Assembly (NCBI RefSeq): GCF_000165395.2
Contig: NC_010574.1
Span: 930,001-994,000, forward strand
Direction of reading: 5' to 3'
DNA length: 64,000 nucleotides
Origin: Babesia bovis T2Bo
Lineage: Eukaryota; Apicomplexa; Aconoidasida; Piroplasmida; Babesiidae
Under the pieces are notes generated by a model. It had not been told where the DNA came from, ran no database searches, and was given only the letters and a program-made list of their open reading frames with translations. The first letter of the stretch is position 1, and each line of letters opens with the position of its first letter. Positions 26,936 to 40,300 of the stretch are shown here, piece after piece. Both the position numbers and the translations under genes were made by a program.

Positions 26936-27149
26936 ACAGTTTGGCATCTATCCGATTAGATTGAGTGAATAGTTTTGTTATAAAATGTCCTACTATGCTT
27001 TTATATTAGCCGAGCCACTACCCGTAACATCTACTTTTTACTCAACTCTTACTAAATGATGTTGTACCATTATGACACAATTACTTATAATGCTGCTTAA
27101 CTTATATGCAGTTCTCACTAAAACTCTTACCAACACCGTTTCCATGCTA

Positions 27150-27440
27150 TTACACAATATTCCTCTTCCTCCTACCAAAATACTCAATCAATTCCACCCC
27201 CTTCCGTCCCGTCATCACCTTATCCCACATACACTGCCACTGGTGCTCTCCACCCCGTAACCAATGCGACCTCATATGTACCCAGTCCAATGGCCATATG
27301 GCACCAAATGCTAGGTAGAGTACCGCTACTAGCCAGGCTAGTGTGAGGACAAAGATCCATGGGAGCCGTATGTCGTATTGGAGCTGGCCGACCTGGGAGA
27401 GGAGATTGGTGAGGGGAGTGGTACTCTTTGTCGTGATCAC
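27150..27440 (-). pseudogene. ves1-alpha 3' end fragment with TM segment
   Basis: Encodes PLTNLLSQVGQLQYDIRLPW, the conserved TM helix (IFVLTLAWLVAVLYLAFGAIW) and the short cytoplasmic tail (SHWLRGGEHQWQCMWDKVMT). This is the last ~90 residues of a VESA1a gene on the same strand as the 26.5-kb fragment; the roughly 2.5 kb that should separate them is deleted. Confidence 0.88.
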
Positions 27441-27519
27441 TGCACCAAAACTCTATGAGTCTTTTACCAACATTGCTACGAAAATCCAAGCAATACACTC
27501 TGTAATCTCATCCATATAC

Positions 27520-27900
27520 CACCCCCAACAGCTACTACTTCTATACTAAACTTTCACCAAAACTATTACTAAACTTTTGTGAAACATTTGCCAAAACTGC
27601 TACTACTTTTATGTGAAACTCTTGCCAAAACTGCCACTACTTTTTTACTAAACTTTCAACAAAAATGCTACTAAACTTCCTTGAAACTTTTACCAAAGTT
27701 ATACTAAACTTCCAGCAAAAGTGCTACTACTTTCTCGTGAACCCTTTACCAAAAGTGCCACTAAAGTTCTGTGAAACACTTATCACATCTAATGCCAAAC
27801 CTCTACCTAAATCCTACTAAGCTTGTACTGAACGTACGACCCAAAATTTTAATAAAACCAGTACTAAACCTTTACTAACACTGCCACTATAACTCTATGT
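27520..27900. repeat. degenerate ves1 3'-flank repeats
   Basis: A run of imperfect units built from CTACTAAACTT, TGTGAAAC and TTACCAAAACTGC, repeated about every 30-45 nt. The complementary pattern (GTTTTGGTAAAAGTTTAGTA-like) lies downstream of ves1-beta at 36715-36990 and is sparser at 49030-49130. Confidence 0.65.
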
Positions 27901-27994
27901 ATACCTTATGAGTATCATTGGTCCTCTAACTCTACCACTAGACTGCTCCACATTACTCATCCCTAGATACTAACTACCACATTATAGCACCGTT

Positions 27995-28007
27995 GCGCCG
28001 AAGGCGC
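27995..28007. repeat. GC hairpin, GAA loop
   Basis: GCGCC-GAA-GGCGC just beyond the ves1-alpha stop codon; member of the hairpin family of this locus. Confidence 0.8.
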
Positions 28008-28020
28008 CACTACGTCGTCA

Positions 28021-31000
28021 CTACCTCCTTTCAAAATACTCCACCAATTCCATTCCTTTGCGTCCCGTCATCACCTTATACCACATACACTGCCACTGGT
28101 GTTCTCCACCCCGTAACCAATGCGACCTCATATGCGTCCAGTCCAGTGGCAATATGGCACCAAAGGCCAGGTAGAGTACCGCTACTAGCCAGGCCACTGC
28201 CAATACAAAGATCCAGGGCAGACGTATGTCGTATTGGAGCTGGCCGACTTGGGTGAGGAGTTCTGTGAGGGGGTGTTGGTCCTGGTCCTGCTTGTTCTGG
28301 ATCACTGCACTAAGACTGTCCAAGAACTCGTGACACCGCTTAGTAGTCTTCGTGTTCTCTATGCTATAATCTCCCTTCTCCTCCCCTTTCTGTTCATACC
28401 CCTCCAGGTTGAATGGGTTACCGTAGCTGAAGCCATGTCTATACAATACCGGTAGTACCCCGGTACATGATACGATTGATTGGCATCCACACTGTCCACT
28501 ACCTTGTCCGTGCTCACCCTTCCTGCACTTATTGGGATCACATTGTCCTTTGCAGCCACGGCATTCAATCTGCTTGAATGCGTCAGAGAGTGACTCTAGT
28601 CCTGAATGAAGTGCATCTGATAGATAGAGTACCCATGAGAGGTATGTTCCACCGAACGTGGCACTCACTGCTGTATAGAGTTCACCGGTTAGGGGGGAAA
28701 GGTATTGGCAGTTCTGTGTGAGTCGTGAGAGGGATGTATTATTGGACTGTGGAGGTGGCTGTTGAGCACTATCCTTGTCGCCTTTAATCTGTATCAGTGC
28801 TTGTCCTACACTTCCTCTATACTTCCCTCCTTTATCACTGTCTCCTCCCTTTGGAATCCACTCTATCTTCTTTACTTCATCCCGTAACCCAGAAGCACAC
28901 CAGCCGCAAAAGTAATCTTCATCTCCTTTCTTAGATGGGTCCTTATTGTGCTCGCACGCCTTGTTTGTCTCTCCATTCTTAGTCTTCCCACTTTCCTTCT
29001 CTCCGATACCACCCCTAAAGAACCCGAATACATCACCCAGTACCTGTGGTGTCGTGGCACTGAGTGCTGCTGTGACCCTCACTAGTGTATAAACACACGA
29101 CTGCATCATGTTCTCGTTACTAAAGAAGTAGAGGATGCCATAGAGTCTTGAGCCAGTCATGTCACTAGTGCCTCCCTTGTGGAATTGACCTCTAAAACCC
29201 ATTGGCAATGGGCAGCACTGACCGGAACCATTACAGTGTCCCAAGTGGGATGCAGCGGGTGGGTAATTTGGGTTTTCCTTCTCATCGTTCAGCACCTTTT
29301 GACAACTAAATCCTGGTAACCGGTCCTCCAGGAATGCCTGGAGGGCGGAGGGGAAGCCGTCCATGTATTGTTGGTGGCACGTAGGGCACTGTCTGGGAAC
29401 TGGCGGTTTGCCACACTTGGCGGAGTGTTGGTCACATGCGCTGCACTTGGGAGAGTTGCAGATGGAGATGAGCTGGTCGATGGCATTGAGAAAGTCATTA
29501 TAGGGGTCTTTCAGATGGCATTTCACGTCCGTTCCCTCCTGTTGTGCCCACTCCTTCAATAGTTTCACTGCTTCCAGTACTCCATTGATAGCCTTTGATA
29601 CCTCGTTCTTGGCGGGATCAACATCGCCGCCTAGTTTATTACATACCTCCCCTAGTATTCCATTTCTACCACTACCATTCGTCAGCTCCACTAGTTTCGC
29701 CTTAGCCTCCTTTAGTTTCTCCTCATCCAGCCCATTCCCATTCACCCTATCTAGTCCCCCCTTAGCCCCATCTAGCTTTCCCTTAGCCTCCGTTAGTTTC
29801 GTCTTCACCTTGTTAATCTCATCTGTCTTCTTCCCTTCCAATGCCTCCTGGGCATTACCCAATTGTACCACTACATTCCCTATGGCCACGAGTAATGCTT
29901 TGGCCTTCTCGATCCCATCTGCTTTAATCCCTTCCGTTACCTTTACATTCTCCAGCTTCTTGACTACCCCATCCAACCCCTTCCCCATCTCCTTTACCCT
30001 ACATTTCCTATCATGTTCCATGGGGTCACACCCCAGGCACATCCAGCTAATTACCCCATTCCCAAGCACTCCACTGCCATACCTACACTCTCTCCACTTC
30101 CCTCCCAGGGCCACTTTAACTGCACACTGTTTCCTAAGGAAGTACAACTGGTAGAACAAAGCCCTAATGTAGTGTACCACCTGGTTGTATGCTTGGATGG
30201 GTACTGCTGGGTAGGTGAATTTACACTCCGTGTTGGAGTATAAGGAGTGAATGGCAGGATCTTTAGTGTCTTTAGTACTGTGTATTCCACCCTGGATACC
30301 TATGAGGACCAGTGGGCAGTACTGAGTCACTGCTTGGAAGTGGGCAAACAGGTTGTATTCATCAACTGTAAAGGGATGTGTGAGGCCTGTTTGATGGAAT
30401 TTGAGTTGTGTCTCTTTTGCACTGCTAGATTCAGTGTCTCCGGGTTTTTTGGTAACATCTTTTAGTTTGTTTTTGGCATAGGTGAGCATCTCCTTATATG
30501 CCTGACTATAGGGCAATGCACTTAGCCAGTATAGGATCTCCCTGATGGTCTTGGGAGTCTTAGTGGTAGTGGGAATAGCTTTCTTTTGTAACCCTGTGAA
30601 GTAGGCACATGATAGAATATAGAGCTTGAATATGGCTCCGTTTTTGTGCTGGTTCGTCTCAGTAATACTAGAGCCGCTGCCATTCGTGAATACAGTAGCT
30701 TCATTGTTGAATGAATCCCTATGTGCAGTATGTACAAAGCCGGCATAATTCATGCCGAAAGGACTTCTAGCTGTATTACCATTGATGTCATTAACTTTAC
30801 CACCATCATTGAGGCCACTAGGCTCCAGGAATCCCAAGAAAAACTTATCCCTAAGTCCATCCCATATAACCTTGTCAAGTCTATTCTTTGGAGCAGCGTT
30901 ATTAAGCATATCCCTAGGGAACCCTAGGGCCTGAAGCCATTGGGATAGTGTTCCATCATCTAGACCACTACCATCCAGGATATGATTGTTCCAGTATGGG

Positions 31001-32161
31001 CTACCTTTGGCATACTTTCCAGTCCAATGCATGTAAGTCACTCCACTCCAGATGAGACATACTGAGCCTAGTAGGATTTGGGCACATTGGTGGCGGCGTT
31101 GGGAGGAAGTAGTACTAATGTCACGGAATGTACCAGTGTATCTATCCAGCGCATTCCACGTAGTTGTCATGTAGTGTTTCTCGATGTACGGGTCATTAGA
31201 TGCTGTATATGCTGACTGATACGAGTCATGGTATATACGACAGTAAGAGCCGTCCTCTTTGTAACAGCTACACTTATCGCTACATCCACATCCCTTCCCC
31301 TTACAACAACACTTGCAGCATTTGCCTGCTAAAGCGCATTTGCAACTGTCAGGACCCTGACAGGTACCATCACCAGGACCACAGCTACATGTATGCCTCT
31401 TACCACCGCTATCACTACACCTTGTACACCTTCTGCCTAGGTGGTGTCCTTTCTCTTCTCGGTCTGCATCGGACACATCCCATTTCATACACCCACACGT
31501 CTCACACTTGTTCTCCGGCTTTATATCATTAAGATACGCGCAGCCATCAAGGCCATGATGTTTCTTGTTATCCTTCTGGCACTTGCCATTACTACCATTA
31601 CCACACTTCTCTATCTTACTCCACCCAACGAGTGCACTGAGTACCTGTGCCAGCTGGTCTATATAAGTCCGGACCACTGCAGTACCACCTAGTCCCTGTA
31701 CCAGAGAGAATAGTCCATTGAGGTGTTTTGTCACGTCATCCTGGGTGGCGCCTTTGTCTTTGGGTTCACCTTGATAGCCTACAGGACACCATGAGGTACT
31801 GTATACCAGTAGTAGAACTAGACAGTACTACTCTGGTACTGGGTACTTACCATTGTACTCCAGTTCTACTGACTGCAGGAGGTCAGTCACTGCCGCCGCC
31901 AGGCCACATATACATTCTGTATCAGAGTGAATCCAATAGTACTGGGCGCGCCACTGTAACGGTTACTGTCGCGCCGAAGGCGCCCCTTCTACACGGGCGC
32001 GCATAACACAGTAATGTCCACAGTAACTTACCTCCCTTGTCCTTTTCCAGTGCCTTTCCATCCCTACCAGTCACCCTGAGGACCCAGTCAATGGCCTCCT
32101 TCAGGTTGGTAGGTGCCTCTGTCAGGGACGCCTTCGGCGTGAAAGTGCTATTCACGGCCAT
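28021..32161 (-). CDS. ves1alpha: ves1-alpha, variant erythrocyte surface antigen VESA1a (3 exons, intact)
   Basis: Exons on the complement are 32032-32161, 31851-31916 and 28021-31778; 3954 nt, 1317 residues. VESA1a pairs with VESA1b on the infected red-cell surface, where it mediates adhesion to host endothelium and antigenic variation. Seen: N-terminal ASLTEAPTNLKEAIDWVLRV with no classical signal peptide; a Cys/Lys-rich region (about 130-255) with CKCALAGKCCKCCCKGKGCG; conserved blocks around CAQILLGSVCLIWSGVTYMH, ILYWLSALPYSQAY and YCPLVLIGIQGG; a low-complexity coiled-coil stretch (about 660-765); a second Cys-rich segment; and a TM helix near 1252-1274 with a ~40-residue cytoplasmic tail. 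The three-exon structure is the ves1-alpha hallmark. Intron 1 carries a GC hairpin at 31971-31983. It is divergent from the ves1-beta at 32518, so this is a candidate active transcription locus. Confidence 0.93.
31971..31983. repeat. GC hairpin in ves1-alpha intron 1
   Basis: GCGCC-GAA-GGCGC, 13 nt, within intron 1 and next to GGCGCGCC-type sequence. Confidence 0.8.
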
Positions 32162-32264
32162 TGTCAGTGCCTTTAGGAGTACTCAGCAGTACTCACAGTG
32201 GTGAGGGAGTGGTCTGGCTATCGGGGTGGAATCCTATATATACTGAGCGCGCCGTAATGAAGGG

Positions 32265-32277
32265 GCGCCTTCGGCGC
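32265..32277. repeat. GC hairpin, left arm of ves1 promoter
   Basis: GCGCC-TTC-GGCGC, followed by GACAGTGTCCTAGGGG. Confidence 0.85.
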
Positions 32278-32378
32278 GACAGTGTCCTAGGGGATTCCAC
32301 CAGGTAGTGCCATTGAGATGATCCCGTTGTTATAGTGGAATCCCCTTTACTCTCACCGCGCGCCACCAAAATACTGTC

Positions 32379-32391
32379 GCGCCAAAGGCGC
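32379..32391. repeat. GC hairpin, right arm of ves1 promoter
   Basis: GCGCC-AAA-GGCGC; the inverted counterpart of the left-arm hairpin with a changed loop. Confidence 0.8.
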
Positions 32392-32517
32392 CACTATCTC
32401 TTTACGGCGCGCTCTACCACGCTAGGATTCCACCCCGATACCTACACTGTCACTACCACTGACTACCATATAGTGCCACCCTTACTGGACACTCTCGAAA
32501 CAAGGGGTGGTGACACA

Positions 32518-35500
32518 ATGGCAGCACAGGCCTGGACCCCTTACACCAGCCTCACCCAGGCTCCCACCAACCTGAAGGAGGCCATTGACTGGGTCCTCAG
32601 GGTAACTGGTAAGGATGGTAAGGAAAACAACAAGGCGGCTTCGCCGCCCCAATTCGGCTGCCTGTGCTACCTTGCCAAGGCAGTGAAGGACCTTCTGTAT
32701 GACGCCAGGTCCCCGGGGTCCCCTGGTCCCAGCCTTGAGAGGAACTGGGACAACGTACTCCTAAAGGAGGAACAGTCCATAGTAAAGCCAGTGCTCACTG
32801 ACCTGGGACTCCTTGGTGCTGGGACTAGTACTGACAGTACTACTTATACTTGCGCTGGTGGTACCGAGGTCATTGGGGCACTGATAGAACAGTTGGCACA
32901 GGGACTACAGAAGTGGGTTGGGTGGCAGAAGGATGATGAGTGTTGTCTTAAGGGAGAAAATGGTAAAGAGAGCAAGGGGATAGGGAAGAAGTGTGAATGT
33001 AGTACTGGTGGTGTTAGCGGGTGTTGTAGTACTAGTAGTGGTACTACTTGTCATCAGTGTGGCACGTGTGGTACCAGTGCCACTGGCCAAAAATGCTACC
33101 AGTCGGCCTATTGCAAAGCCACAAGTCCTCCCAGTTCCCCTACAGACTTCCTTTGGACGTCCATATCCAGTGACTCTGATAAGGTCCACCTCCTGGCCCG
33201 GATTTTCCTAGGGTCAGTATGTCTCATCTGGAGTGGACTCAGTCAGTTGGGGTTCCTAACTAAGGAGGGGAGTGGTGGTATCAATAATAGATGGTCGGAC
33301 AGTAGTCTGCACGAGATCAAGGATGATGGCACGTCTGGTCTCGGCTCATTCATGGCGGCCATGGGCTACGACCTGGAGAGGTTGAATCAGGGAGGTAAAG
33401 GTGAGTACTGCCTAGGGTAGTCATGTGGACTTATGGTGTGGTAGGTAACACGGGTAATGGAGAGTTTGTGCACACTTTGTTGACGGGAAAAGATCCTAAG
33501 ACTGGTGTGGCATGGAACGAATTCAAGAATGGCACAGATAAGGGTAAGTCCACCTCCTCTGTAGTACCAATGTACCCTAGACAGTGTAGCTGAGTACTAT
33601 AGCAGTATCTATAGTACAGCACAGGGTGCTGCCAAGAGTACCAGTGAGACCCTCTGTAAGCAGTACCCCCTATTGGTACTCCATATCCTGGCCAGTGGGT
33701 ACTTCAGGGCAGGCAGTGCCGGGGCCAAGGGTATCACGTCGCCGGCGAAGCCGGCTGAAAAGAAAGACACTCCTGTCTCTAGGAAACCCCGGACAATCCG
33801 GGAAATCCTATACTGGCTTAGTGCATTGCCCTATAGTCAGGGATACAAGGCACTGGTGGATAGGATGAAAGAGAAGTATCCTAGGAAGGAGAACAAACCA
33901 GAAGAATTCGAGGAACAAATAGTGCTTCACGGAGAAGGTGCTGGCAAAAAGACAGAGCTCCATAAGGACAAGATTACCCACTACCTAATGGCCGCCTGTG
34001 GCTACTGCCCACTGGTGCTCATCGGTATCCAGGGGACCATAGAAAGGGAAGTGACACAGCCGCAGACGCAGTCTCCACCAGGTGAGTGATATAGACACTG
34101 TTGTATAGGGGCGCCTTCGGCGCAACAGTGCCCTAGGGGTAGTCATGTGGAGTCATGGTGTAGTAGGTCAGCCGGAGCCGGCAAAGAAGTGTGAAAAGCA
34201 TAAGAAAAACCCTAGTGCTAAAAGGTGTACCCTAGAAGACGCCAACAAGGCTGCATCGGCAGCTCCCAAGGCAGCTCCTGACGACGGCAAACTCAAGGAA
34301 GGTGAAGTCTGCTACGGCGGGTACCACCTGGAAGTGTCCAAATTTGGTAAGTACCCATGAGTACCACTCCCTAACACTTTATAGGCCCCCTCCATGGGAT
34401 GTATGCCAATGGGCTCTTTGGCTTTGACATGGACGGCTCTCCTGCCCAGTGCCTGGACCAACTGAGGGTATATGTCTACCACTGCTTCTACCAGCTCTAT
34501 TTCCTAAGGAAGCAGTGTAGTGTGGGCGCGATAGCGGCCGGAGGAGGAGGGGCAGGGAAGACAGTGCTGGGCTGGAATAGTTGTAGGTATGGTAGTGGAG
34601 TTGCGAAGAAATCTGGTGGCGTTAATGTGAAATGGCAGTGCACCGTAGAGAATACAGGTGAGTGCTCAAAGGGTAATGATGTGAAGTAATAATGTAGTAG
34701 GTAGCGGTGGTACGGATCACACTAAGAAATGTGGATTACAGAGTGGTGCAAGTACTGTTAGTGAGTCAGCTTTACAAGGATTCTTGTGTGATAGTATATA
34801 TGGGATGTACTGCAGGGAAACATTAGGCAAAACCCCTGACAGTGAAGACAAACCATATCCAGAAATTGATGCCCATATGAACAAGACAGTAGATTCTAAA
34901 GGGATAGAACATCCGGCACACCTACAGTATCCTCAATTATGCCCTGTTCCCATGGGCTGGAGCAAGGAAGGCACTAGTGGTGAGAACCACTTCAAAGGTA
35001 CGTCCCATTACTCTATGGTACCCCTAAAGCATTGTATATATACTAGGGGCACCCCCTGGGCGCCACAGTAGCCCTAGTGACCTACAGTGACTCACGTTGT
35101 ATACAGATTTAACCCAAGGTACCCATAAGCAGGCAGAACTGACAACGAAGCCACCAGGTACGTCCCACAGTATATTACATGGACTCATACTGTAGCAGGC
35201 ACTAACAACAAGTACCCTGTACACTGCACTGGGAATACACTGGCGCTACTCCTGGAGTACTACTGTGACCCAGAAAAGTGCCCTAGTGGCACCCTAGTGG
35301 TACTCCTGAGACTGCTGGCATGTATTACTCCCACGGTGCCACGGACCCTGGGTGACCTCTTTGGGTTCTATTACTATATAGTCTACATTGGGGGAAACAG
35401 TGCCAGTGGTGTTGGAGAGCAGGAAGTTAACAAGGCCCTAGGGATATACGAGCAGGAATCTAAACTGCATATGCTGGGTGGTGGTCCTGATGCAGTGGTC

Positions 35501-36682
35501 GAGGCACTAACCACGTGGAACGGTAAGTATACATACAGGGAGTAGTACTGGTCTAGTGCTATAGGGGCGCGCCGTATAGAGACGGTAACTGACAGTGTCC
35601 GTCACGGTGGCGCGCAGTGGTAGTGTATAGGGTGGTGACGTGGTGTAATGGAGTAGTACCACTGACAGTGACTCATGGTGGTGTAGGTGGTAGTAGTACT
35701 GGGTGTAGCGCTGGTGGTTGTACGGAAAAGTCACTTAAGTGCTTATATGGCAACGGCAACAAGTGTACTCCATTCTTATGCCCCCTCAGTGGCCAGCAGT
35801 ATGGCCAGTTGAGTCCCGTGATGGCCGGGACCTACCTGTCATGGTTGGTCTATTTGATAGGGGAGTTCCAGGAAGGGCTGGAAGGGTTGAAAGGGGAGTT
35901 CACAAAGATTAGTTGTAAGGATTCGGATTGTAAAAGTAGGTTTCAGTGCTTATAAGGGCGCCTTCGGCGCACAGTGTCATATGGATTCATGGTGTAGTAG
36001 GTCAGGGAGGTGCTGGTGGATGTGGTGGCGATGGAAAGTGCCAAGCAGGAACCCATGGTACTCCATGTCCTGGTGGTAGTAGTGGTGGTGGCGGAGTCTG
36101 TCAGTGTGCCTCTGTCGTATCATGTACCGGGGTACTACCGGTGTTGTACAAGTATGGCTTTGGGTATGGCAATGTAGAGACGTTGCACAAGACAGGAGGT
36201 AAGTTGTAGTATAGTAGTATGGATAGTGTAGAGACAGTGTAGCTGTAGTTTTGCTGAAAGTTTCACACAAGTTTAGTACAAGTTTTGGTAAAAGTTTTAT
36301 AAGGGCGCCTTCGGCGCAACTGTGCCCTAGGGGTAGTCATAGTGTAGCAGGTTCGAAGACGTGCGATGCGTTCCTAACGACGCTAAAGGGTGTTCTAGAA
36401 AGTGAAAAGTTCGTTGGTGACAGCAGCAAGAAAACAGGGTTAATCCCTAGTGTAAACCAACTCATCTACACCACCAGGCTCCCCTGGATCTTTGTCCTCA
36501 CGCTAGCGTGGCTAGTAGCGGTACTCTACCTCGCCTTTGGTGCCATATGGCCACTGGACTGGGCACATATGAGGTCGCATTGCAGAGGATGGTTCAGGAA
36601 GGGCAGTCTGAGTCCATGGGAAGTACTGATGGTGGGAAAGAAGAAGGGGAGGGGGATACTAGAGTTTTTTGGTGGGAGGTAG
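32518..36682 (+). CDS. ves1beta: ves1-beta, variant erythrocyte surface antigen VESA1b (11 exons, apparently intact)
   Basis: Exons: 32518-33400, 33445-33543, 33620-34081, 34167-34346, 34385-34657, 34701-34997, 35107-35157, 35199-35522, 35687-35935, 36001-36198 and 36351-36682; 3348 nt, 1115 residues. Every intron joins in phase 1, and many exon introns are GT/AG. VESA1b is the second subunit of the VESA1 surface ligand. Seen: TSLTQAPTNLKEAIDWVLRV shared with VESA1a, LARIFLGSVCLIWSGLSQLG, several Cys-rich stretches, ILYWLSALPYSQGY, YCPLVLIGIQG, CASVVSCTGVLPVLYKYGFG, a TM helix near 1049-1071 and a beta-type tail (SHCRGWFRKGSLSPWEVLM). Introns 3, 9 and 10 carry GC hairpins; two further GC hairpins are inside exons 1 and 3. 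The exon 3 acceptor (after 33619) was chosen to keep phase; neighbouring AGs break the frame. Confidence 0.88.
32634..32648. repeat. GC hairpin inside ves1-beta exon 1
   Basis: GGCGGC-TTC-GCCGCC, coding for part of KAASPP; same three-base loop as the intronic hairpins. Confidence 0.75.
33741..33755. repeat. GC hairpin inside ves1-beta exon 3
   Basis: GCCGGC-GAA-GCCGGC, coding for part of SPAKPA. Confidence 0.75.
34111..34139. repeat. hairpin module in ves1-beta intron 3
   Basis: GCGCC-TTC-GGCGC followed by AACAGTGCCCTAGGGG, nearly the same 29 nt as in the promoter at 32265-32293. Confidence 0.85.
35958..35970. repeat. GC hairpin in ves1-beta intron 9
   Basis: GCGCC-TTC-GGCGC followed by ACAGTGTCATATGGA. 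Confidence 0.8.
36305..36333. repeat. hairpin module in ves1-beta intron 10
   Basis: GCGCC-TTC-GGCGC followed by AACTGTGCCCTAGGGG, the third copy of the 29-nt module. Confidence 0.85.
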
Positions 36683-36695
36683 TGGCAAAGTAGTG

Positions 36696-36708
36696 GCGCC
36701 TTCGGCGC
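36696..36708. repeat. GC hairpin just 3' of ves1-beta
   Basis: GCGCC-TTC-GGCGC 13 nt beyond the stop codon, mirroring the hairpin beyond the ves1-alpha stop at 27995-28007. Confidence 0.8.
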
Positions 36709-36714
36709 GATAAC

Positions 36715-36990
36715 TAGGGATAATGTGGATATGGTTAGTAAGGGTTTCATAGAAAAGTAGTGGCAGTTTTGGCAAAAGTTTGGTAGAAAAGTAGTAGCTG
36801 TTAGGGATGGTGATGTGGATAGGGTTACAGAGTGTTTTCTTAGAGTTACGTAGCACTGTTAGTAAAGGTTTAGTAGTGATTGTATTAAAATGTTCGTAGT
36901 ATATTCAATAAAAGCTTAATACGGGTTTTGGTAGAGGTTTGGCATTACTTTTGGTAAAAGTTTGATGCTACATTTTATTAAAAGTTTATA
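36715..36990. repeat. degenerate ves1-beta 3'-flank repeats
   Basis: Imperfect units of GTTTTGGTAAAAGTTT, GTAGAAAAGTAGTAG and similar; complement of the pattern at 27520-27900. A short stretch of the same type occurs in intron 10 (36250-36300). Confidence 0.6.
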
Positions 36991-37024
36991 GGTGTTAAGG
37001 GTAGATTATATGGTGTAGTAGTAC

Positions 37025-37240
37025 GTTTTTGTGACCACATAGTCACTACATGGTAACAACTATGTGTCTCTTCCCCTCTGATTATTCTAAACAGTGTCCT
37101 GCTACAGGTTTATAGAGTCCTATACAAATGGAAGAACGCGTTCACTAGTCTACACAGTACCATATAGAATGTCCCCTCACAAAGGACTGTTTAGTGGGGG
37201 CACTATATATGTTGGCGTTACCCTGGTGGGGTTTTTTTAG
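37025..37240. repeat. direct repeat, left copy, upstream of truncated ves1-alpha
   Basis: Contains TGTGACCACATAGTCACTAC and, at 37180-37240, ACAAAGGACTGTTTAGTGGG followed by GTTACCCTGGTGGGGTTTTT. The right copy is at 41448-41560. Confidence 0.7.
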
Positions 37241-37362
37241 TAAAATTGGGGGTGATGGGGTAGTGTAGAGACACTGATTTAGAATGGGCGCCCGTAGAGA
37301 TGGTACCTGACAGTGTCCATTACAGTGGCGTGCCCAGTACTATTGAACTCACCCCTCTACAG

Positions 37363-40300
37363 AATGCATATGTGGCCTGGCGGCGGCAGTGACTGACCTA
37401 CTGCAGTCAGTACAACTGGAGTACCATGGTAAGTAGACAGTAGTCTAGTAGTTCAGCACCATTATAGGCTATGAAGGTGAAAGTGAAGGCAAAGGTGCCA
37501 ACAGTGACAAGGTGAAGGAACACCTTAATGGACTCTTCTCCCTGGTACAGGGACTAGGTGGTACCTCCGTGGTCCGGACCTACATAGACCAGCTGGCACA
37601 GGTACTCAGTGCACTAGTTGGGTGGAGTAAGATAACGAAGTGTGATAATAGTGGCTGCAAAGGCACTAGTGGCACTAGTGGCGATAGCAATCCCCATGGC
37701 CAAAGTAGCAGTGGTGGCAGTTGCGAGTATCTAAATGAGGTGACAGCGAACAAACCATGTGAACAGTGTAGGTGTATGAAATGGGATGTGCCCGATGCGG
37801 GTGATCACACTAAGGGACACCATCTGGGCAGGGGGTGTACAAGGTGTAAGGATAGTGGTGGTAGTAGTAGTGCACAGTGTAGCTGTGGTAGTGGCACCTG
37901 TACTCCTGACAAGTGTCAATGCGCTATAGAAGGCAAATGCTGCAAGTGTTATTGTAAGGAAGGATGTAAAGATAAGTGTAAGAAGGATGCAAAGTGTAGC
38001 TGTATCGAAACGGACACTAACGGCTTAGATCGTCGTGTATACAAAGAAACATATCAATCGGCATATGGAGGTTTTCTCAGCTTCGATTCATACGTGGGAG
38101 GAAAAAACCAGGCATACAGACAGCCAATATGGAATGATCTCAATGGTAAACTACCTAGTGGTGACACGATCTTTGGGCTACCTGATGCTACTCCCTCCCA
38201 ACGTCGCCAAAAATGTGCCCAGATCCTCCTAGGCTCAGTATGTCTCATCTGGAGTGGCATTACTTATATGTATTGGACAGGTAGATATGCCAAGGGTAGT
38301 CCTTACTGGAACAATCACATCCTGGACGGTAGTGGTATAGATGATGGAAGCTTATCCCAATGGCTTCAGGCCCTAGGGTTTCCTAGGGATATGTTGAACA
38401 ATAGTGGTCCTGGAAATAGATGGGATGCTGTTATATGGGATGGACTTAGTGATAAGTTGCTTCTAGGGTTTGCTAAGCCTAGTGGTGCCAGTGGCTGGGA
38501 CACTGAGGGTAATACAGCCAGAAATCCATTCGCTATGAACTTTGCCGGTTTTGTACATACTGCACATAGGGATTCATTTAATAATAGTGCTATTGTCTTC
38601 CATAAGAATGGCAATGACGCTAGTATTCCTGACACTAACCAGCACAAACGTGGCGCCCTCTTCAAGCTCTACATTCTATCATGTGCCTACTTTACCGGGT
38701 TACAGAAGAAGAATACCACTGAAAGTACTCCAAGGACCCCCAAGACCATCCGTGAGATCCTATACTGGCTAAGTGCATTGCCCTATAGTCAGGCCTATAA
38801 GGATACACTAGACTATGCCAAGGGAAGATTATCTGACGTACTCAAAAAACCCGAAGCCACTGACTCTACCAATGGAGAAACACAATTGAAATTTATTCAA
38901 ACGGATCGTCCCGCACCCATTACCGTTCATGAATACAACCTCTTTGCCCACTTCCAAGCAGTGACTCAGTACTGCCCACTGGTCCTCATAGGTATCCAGG
39001 GTGGAATACACAGTACCACCAAAGGTACTAAAGAACCTCCTATTCACTCCCTCTATGCCAACACTGAGTGCCACTTCACCTATCCCACTGTGTCCATCCA
39101 AGCATACAACCAGGTGGTACACTACATTAGGGCTCTGTTCTATCAGTTGTACTTTCTTAGGAAGCAATGTGCAGTGAAAGTGACTTGTGGAGGGAAGTGG
39201 CGTGAGTGTAGGTATGGTCAGGGGGTGGTATCCAAGGGGGTAATCAGCTGGATGTGCCTGGGGTGTGACCCCATGGAGCATGATAGGAATTATAGGGTAA
39301 AGAAGGTAAAGGAGGAGTTGGATGGGGTGATCAAGGGGAAAGATCCAAAGGATCTTCCGGGGACCCTGAAGGAAGTACTAGAGAAGATTGGTGATGTAGT
39401 GGTACAATTGGGTAATGCTCAGGAGGCATTGGAAGGGAAGAAAAAGGAGGCTATAGAGGGGGTGCAGAAGGCACTAGAGGGGGCTAAGGAGGAACTGGAT
39501 AAACTGAAGGATCTGGATGGGCTGAATGATGAAAAACTAAAGGAAGCTAAGAAGAAACTAGTGGAGCTGACGAATGGTAGTGGTAATGGAATACTAGGGA
39601 AGGTATTAGGACATGGTGGATTAGAGACGGCTAAGAGTGATGTGACAAATGTTGATCCCGGTAAGAACAAGATCAGTGATGCTATCGATGGAGTACACAA
39701 GGCATTGGAAGCATTGAAGGACGCAGTCCAACAGATCATTGAAGCAACAAAGAACGATACAAAACAATTCCAAGAAGCTATTATTACTGCTACCGATGAA
39801 GCAGATGTAATCAGGCGGCTTCAAGAACCCCGAGATAGTCAAAAGGCAACATTGGAAGCGTTATCAGAACTCCTCTCAGCCATCGACCACCTCCTCTCCA
39901 TCTGCAACACCGCAAAGTGCCCTGGATGTAAAGATCACGCCACCAAGTGTGGCCAACCATCAAATCCCAGTATCTGTAAGACCTGTCTCCAACCCACCAC
40001 CACTGGAGTCCCCTCCCCCCTCCAGGCATTCCTCGAGGATCGGTTGCCAGGTTTTAGTTGTAGTGAAGTACCAGCAGACGACACGCCCGACTACCCACCC
40101 GCTGCATCCCACTTACATCACACTAGTGCTACTGGTCAATGCTGCCCGTTGCCAATGGGATTCAGGAATTCCTTCTACAGCGGCAGCACCGGTGACATGA
40201 CGGGCTCAAGACTCTATGGTATCCTCTACTTCTTCAGTAACGGGGACATGATGCAGTCGTGTGTCTATACACTAGTGAGGGTCACTGCAGCTCTCAGTGC

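Follow-up and report, generated by a model that had tools for sequence, protein, structure and literature searches.

The 64,000-nucleotide stretch of Babesia bovis T2Bo DNA analysed here (RefSeq assembly GCF_000165395.2, contig NC_010574.1, positions 930,001 to 994,000; hereafter the window, in whose coordinates features are given) holds a ves1 pair, ves1-alpha on the minus strand and ves1-beta on the plus strand, along which a short GC-rich hairpin, GCGCC-N3-GGCGC, recurs. The gene names come from a preliminary description of this DNA and from a VESA1_N match; the last exons of both genes close with TAG by reading frame, and splice sites were assigned from the sequence alone. The window was searched for exact GCGCC-N3-GGCGC and for copies with one mismatch to the TTC-loop form, 100 dinucleotide shuffles serving as control. 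Eight canonical copies were found, beginning at 27995, 31971, 32265, 32379, 34111, 35958, 36305 and 36696, and none elsewhere even with one mismatch (expected number 0.00; maximum over the shuffles 0). These are the positions and contexts that the preliminary description had claimed: both gene ends, both promoter arms, ves1-alpha intron 1 and three ves1-beta introns. Its mention of an AT-rich setting was overstated, the GC content of the window being 42.5%.

The ves1-alpha 3' hairpin, GCGCC-TTC-GGCGC (27995-28007, minus strand), begins 13 nt past the TAG stop (28021-28023), and that of ves1-beta (36696-36708, plus strand) begins 13 nt past its own TAG (36680-36682). In ves1-alpha intron 1 (31917-32031, GT..AG, minus strand) the hairpin (31971-31983) is the inner unit of a 57-bp nested cassette (31946-32002) with outer arms GCGCGCC/GGCGCGC. 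The ves1-beta-side promoter arm is a complete nested cassette of 55 bp (32358-32412, minus strand) around an inner hairpin with a TTT loop (32379-32391; AAA on the other strand), and the ves1-alpha-side arm (32247-32277, plus strand) comprises the left outer arm GCGCGCC and the hairpin 32265-32277, with no right outer arm. In ves1-beta, all on the plus strand, hairpins lie in introns c (34082-34166, 85 nt; hairpin 34111-34123), i (35936-36000, 65 nt; 35958-35970) and j (36199-36350, 152 nt; 36305-36317); intron h (35523-35686) contains a 49-bp outer cassette without inner hairpin (35567-35615), and intron f (34998-35106, 109 nt) a non-canonical triloop hairpin, AGGGG-CAC-CCCCT (35045-35057). 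A degenerate outer cassette, also without inner hairpin, occupies intron 1 of the next ves1-alpha copy to the right (37286-37334, plus strand). The three enclosing cassettes, the intron f hairpin, this degenerate cassette and an exon hairpin at 32128 (discussed below) were absent from the preliminary description.

The canonical hairpin is located by ves1 genes throughout the genome. The exact 13-mer has 243 copies, the reversed-pattern control none. All of the 238 copies that could be located by four extended patterns have a VESA1_N (PF12785) match no more than 10 kb away, vs 13.9% for random places on contigs C1-C5, and 204 of them are within 5 kb, vs 9.2% expected. A total of 304 kb was analysed in full, namely the window and 24 stretches picked for holding or adjoining ves matches (labelled by L-numbers). 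The ves-like part (173 kb) contains 170 perfect triloop hairpins with a stem of at least 5 bp that includes at least 4 GC pairs (0.98/kb), the remaining 131 kb contain 7 (0.054/kb), and five Markov simulations of the ves-like part gave 24 to 34 vs the 170 observed. The positions also recur among ves paralogs. Given this strong enrichment and recurrence, neither of the outcomes that the preliminary description had named as refuting it, equal density in non-ves loci and a lack of positional conservation, was found.

When flanks are clustered, the 13-mer occurs in eight unrelated contexts, including gene 3' ends, ves1-beta introns, ves1-alpha intron 1 and promoter arms, which places it at the top of 273 repeated 13-mers with at least 30 copies, tied only with an overlapping word. 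Sequence is often common beyond the palindrome, in the form of a G immediately preceding it and RACRGTG following it. Terminal ves modules (last intron, last exon and gene end) form tandem arrays at L019 160-2300, L020 2525-4700 and L021 3547-4700, where hairpin spacings such as 263, 388 and 705 bp are repeated. Some gene ends are alike up to the start of the hairpin and then continue into another downstream sequence, ttggagattgtaaataaatac or one closely similar to it (L018 7284, L025 2791, L026 8024 and L028 4729), and at L028 8876 (minus strand) a ves1-alpha-type end is followed by ves1-beta-type downstream sequence, the switch falling near the hairpin.

The arms of the hairpin are fixed and its loop is freer. 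Constancy was assessed at 81 sites chosen genome-wide by their flanks and not by the hairpin; the arms are perfect at 33 of 34 ves1-alpha 3' ends and at 46 of 47 ves1-beta introns of the c/j type. Over these sites the arms differ at 2 of 810 bases and the loop at 31 of 243 (19 of the 81 sites), with TTA, TTT, TTG, ATT, AGG, TGA and ATG occurring besides TTC. Counting derived states once per context leaves eight loop changes vs two in the arms (p=2e-4 under equal rates, assuming independence). Both arm changes disrupt pairs, and no compensatory arm pair was seen at the 81 sites. The flank pattern for beta introns allowed a gap from 5 up, and because of this it missed a collapsed allele in L032. 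Within the 304 kb, flank-chosen sites have perfect arms at 20/20 alpha 3' ends, 13/13 beta 3' ends and 22/23 beta introns, and at just 4/10 sites with the cassette flank GACA.T..CCGTTACAGTGG, the remaining six being five cassettes without hairpin and one arm change. Single-mismatch copies in the same loci (n=19) differ at the third loop base in 17 cases and in an arm in two, both of them promoter copies. Inversion of the loop as proof of hairpin formation was rejected: reversed-type loops are 2 vs 152, and both are TAA, one change away from TTA. Separately, an apparent AAA vs TTT inversion between perfect arms, at L024 5869 (exon) and L032 5352 (alpha intron 1), is suggestive only.

The larger cassette often encloses the hairpin where this occurs in a promoter, in ves1-alpha intron 1 or in some of the ves1-beta introns. 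The cassette pattern occurs at 89 genome places; since it is its own reverse complement, its 89 forward and 89 reverse matches are the same places. Cassette length ranges from 45 to 59 bp among the matches listed (about half of the 89) and the 304-kb loci, and the inner hairpin is present in some and missing in others. The ends form 7-bp inverted terminal repeats, GCGCGCC/GGCGCGC, these ends being the search pattern itself. All of 14 parsed ves1-alpha intron-1 sequences retain a perfect outer stem, inner stem or both; degenerate outer arms with no hairpin are found in the further ves1-alpha intron 1 of the window described above and in one in L029. Several of the 14, by eye, lack the sequence that separates the inner right arm from the outer one and look as if these two arms had been joined. 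A 6-bp direct repeat within 1 nt of both ends flanks 3 of the 30 cassettes in the 304-kb loci, all at the alpha-side promoter site (L024 4195, L027 7858 on the minus strand, and L031 5142; ATACTG in two and ATACTA in the third), and none of the intron cassettes among these 30; 33 of 2000 re-pairings of flanks also reach three cassettes. The repeat could have been left by an insertion at a single ancestral site or could be fortuitous.

Cassette content is mixed across non-equivalent sites. The ves1-alpha intron-1 cassette of the window is identical to the L024 promoter cassette at 57 of 57 bases, within flanks that differ as intron from promoter, and two further identical 57-bp copies (C2:237501 and C3:706142) are promoter-like as judged by orientation only. 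Exchange was assessed further by comparing, ungapped, 30 bp on each side of every copy of a word and scoring informative pairs that match on one side only. For the outer arm GCGCGCC this switch rate is 0.774 (182 of 235 informative pairs, 94 in one direction and 88 in the other). The controls were 1016 7-mers present 60-160 times, any that contained GGCGC, GCGCC or CGCG being left out; their 99th percentile is 0.69 and only one of them equals or exceeds GCGCGCC. The share of the smaller direction, 0.374, lies above the control maximum of 0.311, a comparison to be taken as a ranking only, the genes being related. An initial run with 596 sampled controls had given six with a rate as high. The earlier suggestion that the hairpins mark recombination finds support for the outer GCGCGCC/GGCGCGC arms, whose two-way share tops all 1016 controls, and no support for the 13-bp hairpin, which is equalled or exceeded by 123 of 430 control 13-mers. 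The companion suggestion of a short mobile hairpin holds in the sense of one module in several unrelated contexts; transposition is at most a candidate, with a possible target-site repeat at a single promoter site only.

We are inclined to regard the hairpins as a ves-restricted family of noncoding palindromic modules, with an inner unit GCGCC-N3-GGCGC, usually with a TTC loop and often followed by RACRGTG. It also seems somewhat probable that palindrome-bounded noncoding cassettes are exchanged among ves loci through segmental gene conversion, with the arms as anchors. Segmental gene conversion or template switching would copy modules from one ves site to another, non-equivalent one, the short GC arms providing the pairing; such copying would also restore the arms to the family sequence and leave the loop free, and modules would persist where coding and splicing are unharmed. 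According to PMC7485966, the tracts of ves conversion have a mean length of about 109 bp, and breakpoint homology is 2-35 bp, sometimes none; module copying that needs only short homology would fit these lengths. That the modules act directly in transcription, in splicing or in forming 3' ends is a candidate idea and unproven.

Several points weigh against exchange anchored on the arms. Inner-arm and edge 7-mers have switch rates of 0.06-0.52 (control 95th percentile 0.535), and the 13-bp hairpin is no exceptional switch point; these ordinary to moderately high values, together with the control 13-mers, give no support to the inner hairpin as a special chimera junction. Because the comparisons are ungapped, presence or absence of the hairpin inflates the class of pairs that are the same outside and different inside, and because the genes are paralogs the pair counts are non-independent; the controls, moreover, leave out all words with GGCGC, GCGCC or CGCG in them. 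The copies give neither direction nor date of transfer, and the promoter/intron identity could reflect shared constraint. The 6-bp repeat at the one promoter site would suit insertion over conversion. Lastly, the full reading covers 304 kb, and 20 of the 24 added stretches come from one contig.

An RNA function, in which the palindrome folds in the transcript within introns or past the stop and aids long-intron splicing or 3' end formation or stability, is a rival explanation that we regard as unlikely. GC hairpins occur in 9 of 13 ves1-beta introns longer than 55 nt vs 0 of 21 of 55 nt or less (34 introns located by their exon flanks), and in the window a GC stem occurs in 5/5 ves1-beta introns of at least 65 nt (three canonical, one outer cassette only and one different hairpin) vs 0/5 short ones, the paralogs so counted not being independent of each other. 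A GC stem is kept in all 14 parsed alpha intron-1 sequences, where the folding z against shuffles averages -2.05 in sense and -0.94 in antisense; however, the long ves1-beta introns show no sense-strand folding excess (mean z 0.23, n=13), and the alpha introns at 37286-37334 and in L029 make do with degenerate arms and no inner hairpin. Likewise, 37 of 54 ves gene ends, located by coding similarity, have a hairpin within 110 nt, but 17 lack it. The changes at the 81 flank-chosen sites, none compensatory and both arm changes breaking pairs, speak against an RNA stem, and promoter copies may fall outside transcripts. The idea of a stable GNA-type DNA triloop was set aside; folding parameters gave the same energy on both strands, and Rfam yielded 0 matches at gathering score in window positions 27000-38000.

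Within the window ves1-beta gene (33401-36350), six introns (a, c, e, h, i and j) have sequence in common beyond the splice sites, at non-homologous positions, and most of the 3' half is common to a and c. Pairwise sharing among the six gives uncorrected p values of 0.001-0.007, with which intragenic duplication is also compatible; the shared sequence hints at intron multiplication in ves1-beta, for which introner-like elements, with their near-identical introns at unrelated places, would be a candidate parallel.

The same constancy of the arms could have its origin in a protein-binding palindrome, two fixed half-sites with a freer 3-bp spacer forming a putative DNA site in promoters, introns and gene ends that serves, for instance, silencing or expression of one locus at a time. 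The lack of compensatory change at the 81 sites, the element common to promoter and intron at 57/57 bases and the restriction to ves loci are all in keeping with such a site; nevertheless, the freedom of the spacer is asymmetric, 17 of the 19 single-mismatch copies differing at its third base, and the element is missing at 17/54 gene ends and 25/34 beta introns, and we consider this explanation improbable. A more specific form, in which the cassette is a ves pairing element whose identical promoter and intron modules are bound or paired to silence or license a ves locus, the set being kept uniform by swapping, is in our estimate distinctly improbable. That the hairpin is a passive passenger, merely part of noncoding sequence duplicated with ves genes and with neither exchange role nor function, would suit the many copies in arrays with repeated spacings (320, 263 and 705 bp) and flanks alike within a class (21-25 of 40 flank columns invariant), but is very improbable given arms more constant than the loop and upstream flank, the eight unrelated contexts of the 13-mer and cassette content that varies independently of the flanks.

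Three further hairpins of the window lie in exons, in coding sequence that contains Ala, Pro and Lys codons, and have arms unlike those of the noncoding module. GGCGGC-TTC-GCCGCC (32634-32648, in an Ala/Pro-rich variable stretch of ves1-beta exon 1) and GCCGGC-GAA-GCCGGC (33741-33755, encoding PAKPA upstream of a TIREILYW motif) exist as reported, and ACGCC-TTC-GGCGT (32128-32140) lies in ves1-alpha exon 1. The preliminary description had grouped the first two with the noncoding hairpins, probably wrongly: all three are probably unrelated to these, the alpha exon-1 form is disrupted in L020, L024 and L032, three of the listed paralogs, and membership of the same element is unlikely for low-complexity coding sequence of this kind. 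At the site before TIREILYW the hairpin beats synonymous resampling (p<0.05) in 12 of 35 paralogs (Fisher p 1.3e-5, the paralogs being non-independent), a modest excess, and in 11 of these 12 the GC arms lie in PPKA, PPLA or PAKPA codons. Some ves1-beta paralogs, e.g. L016 2221 (minus strand), seem by eye to carry a short intron past the exon-1 low-complexity stretch, which the window copy (32634) lacks.

The ves1 genes are antigen-switching genes, and their promoters, introns and gene ends have a GC-rich hairpin that is nearly identical throughout. PMC9047050 raises, as a question for the field, how sequence change comes to be concentrated on ves genes; a palindrome-bounded cassette present in promoter and introns provides a countable marker of ves exchange and, if a regulatory role of the cassette were true, would give a sequence handle on single-locus expression. 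A search of the open-access literature, for most papers at the level of listings and with subscription papers outside its reach, turned up no account of the hairpin family or of cassettes common to promoters and introns; such a hairpin is not mentioned in term-matched passages of PMC4066756, PMC6684078 and PMC6630957, and the sole open-access match to the exact 13-mer concerns Caulobacter materials.

Parts of the arrangement resemble known systems. Elements of the miniature inverted-repeat transposable element (MITE) type are short and noncoding, with inverted ends, many copies and several contexts. The ves cassette, with its inverted 7-bp ends, has all these properties; unlike such elements it shows a flanking repeat at one promoter site only and, among the copies located, is limited to one gene family. 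Bidirectional ves promoters were reportedly described as quasi-palindromic by Al-Khedery & Allred 2006 and Wang et al. 2012. Their quasi-palindromic nature is also already stated in PMC7485966. The hairpins at 32265 and 32379 fall in such a region; here, however, alpha intron 1 and beta introns have the cassette as well, and gene ends have the inner hairpin. Among var genes, Avraham 2012 is said to have described insulator-like pairing elements, the same short element lying in the promoter and intron of an antigen gene. The ves cassette similarly lies in both promoter (L024) and intron (intron 1 of the window), but the ves element is found in several introns and at gene ends as well, and is known here from its sequence only. 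According to PMC9047050, a G-quadruplex motif is enriched near ves genes and was proposed to focus conversion; this too is a non-B DNA motif concentrated at ves loci, while the GC palindrome is another motif. Predicted DNA secondary structures have been reported at Plasmodium var recombination sites (PMC3936766), and there too short palindromes are tied to exchange in an antigen family; those structures are predicted 50-mers of varied sequence, whereas in ves one near-invariant palindrome bounds a discrete cassette.

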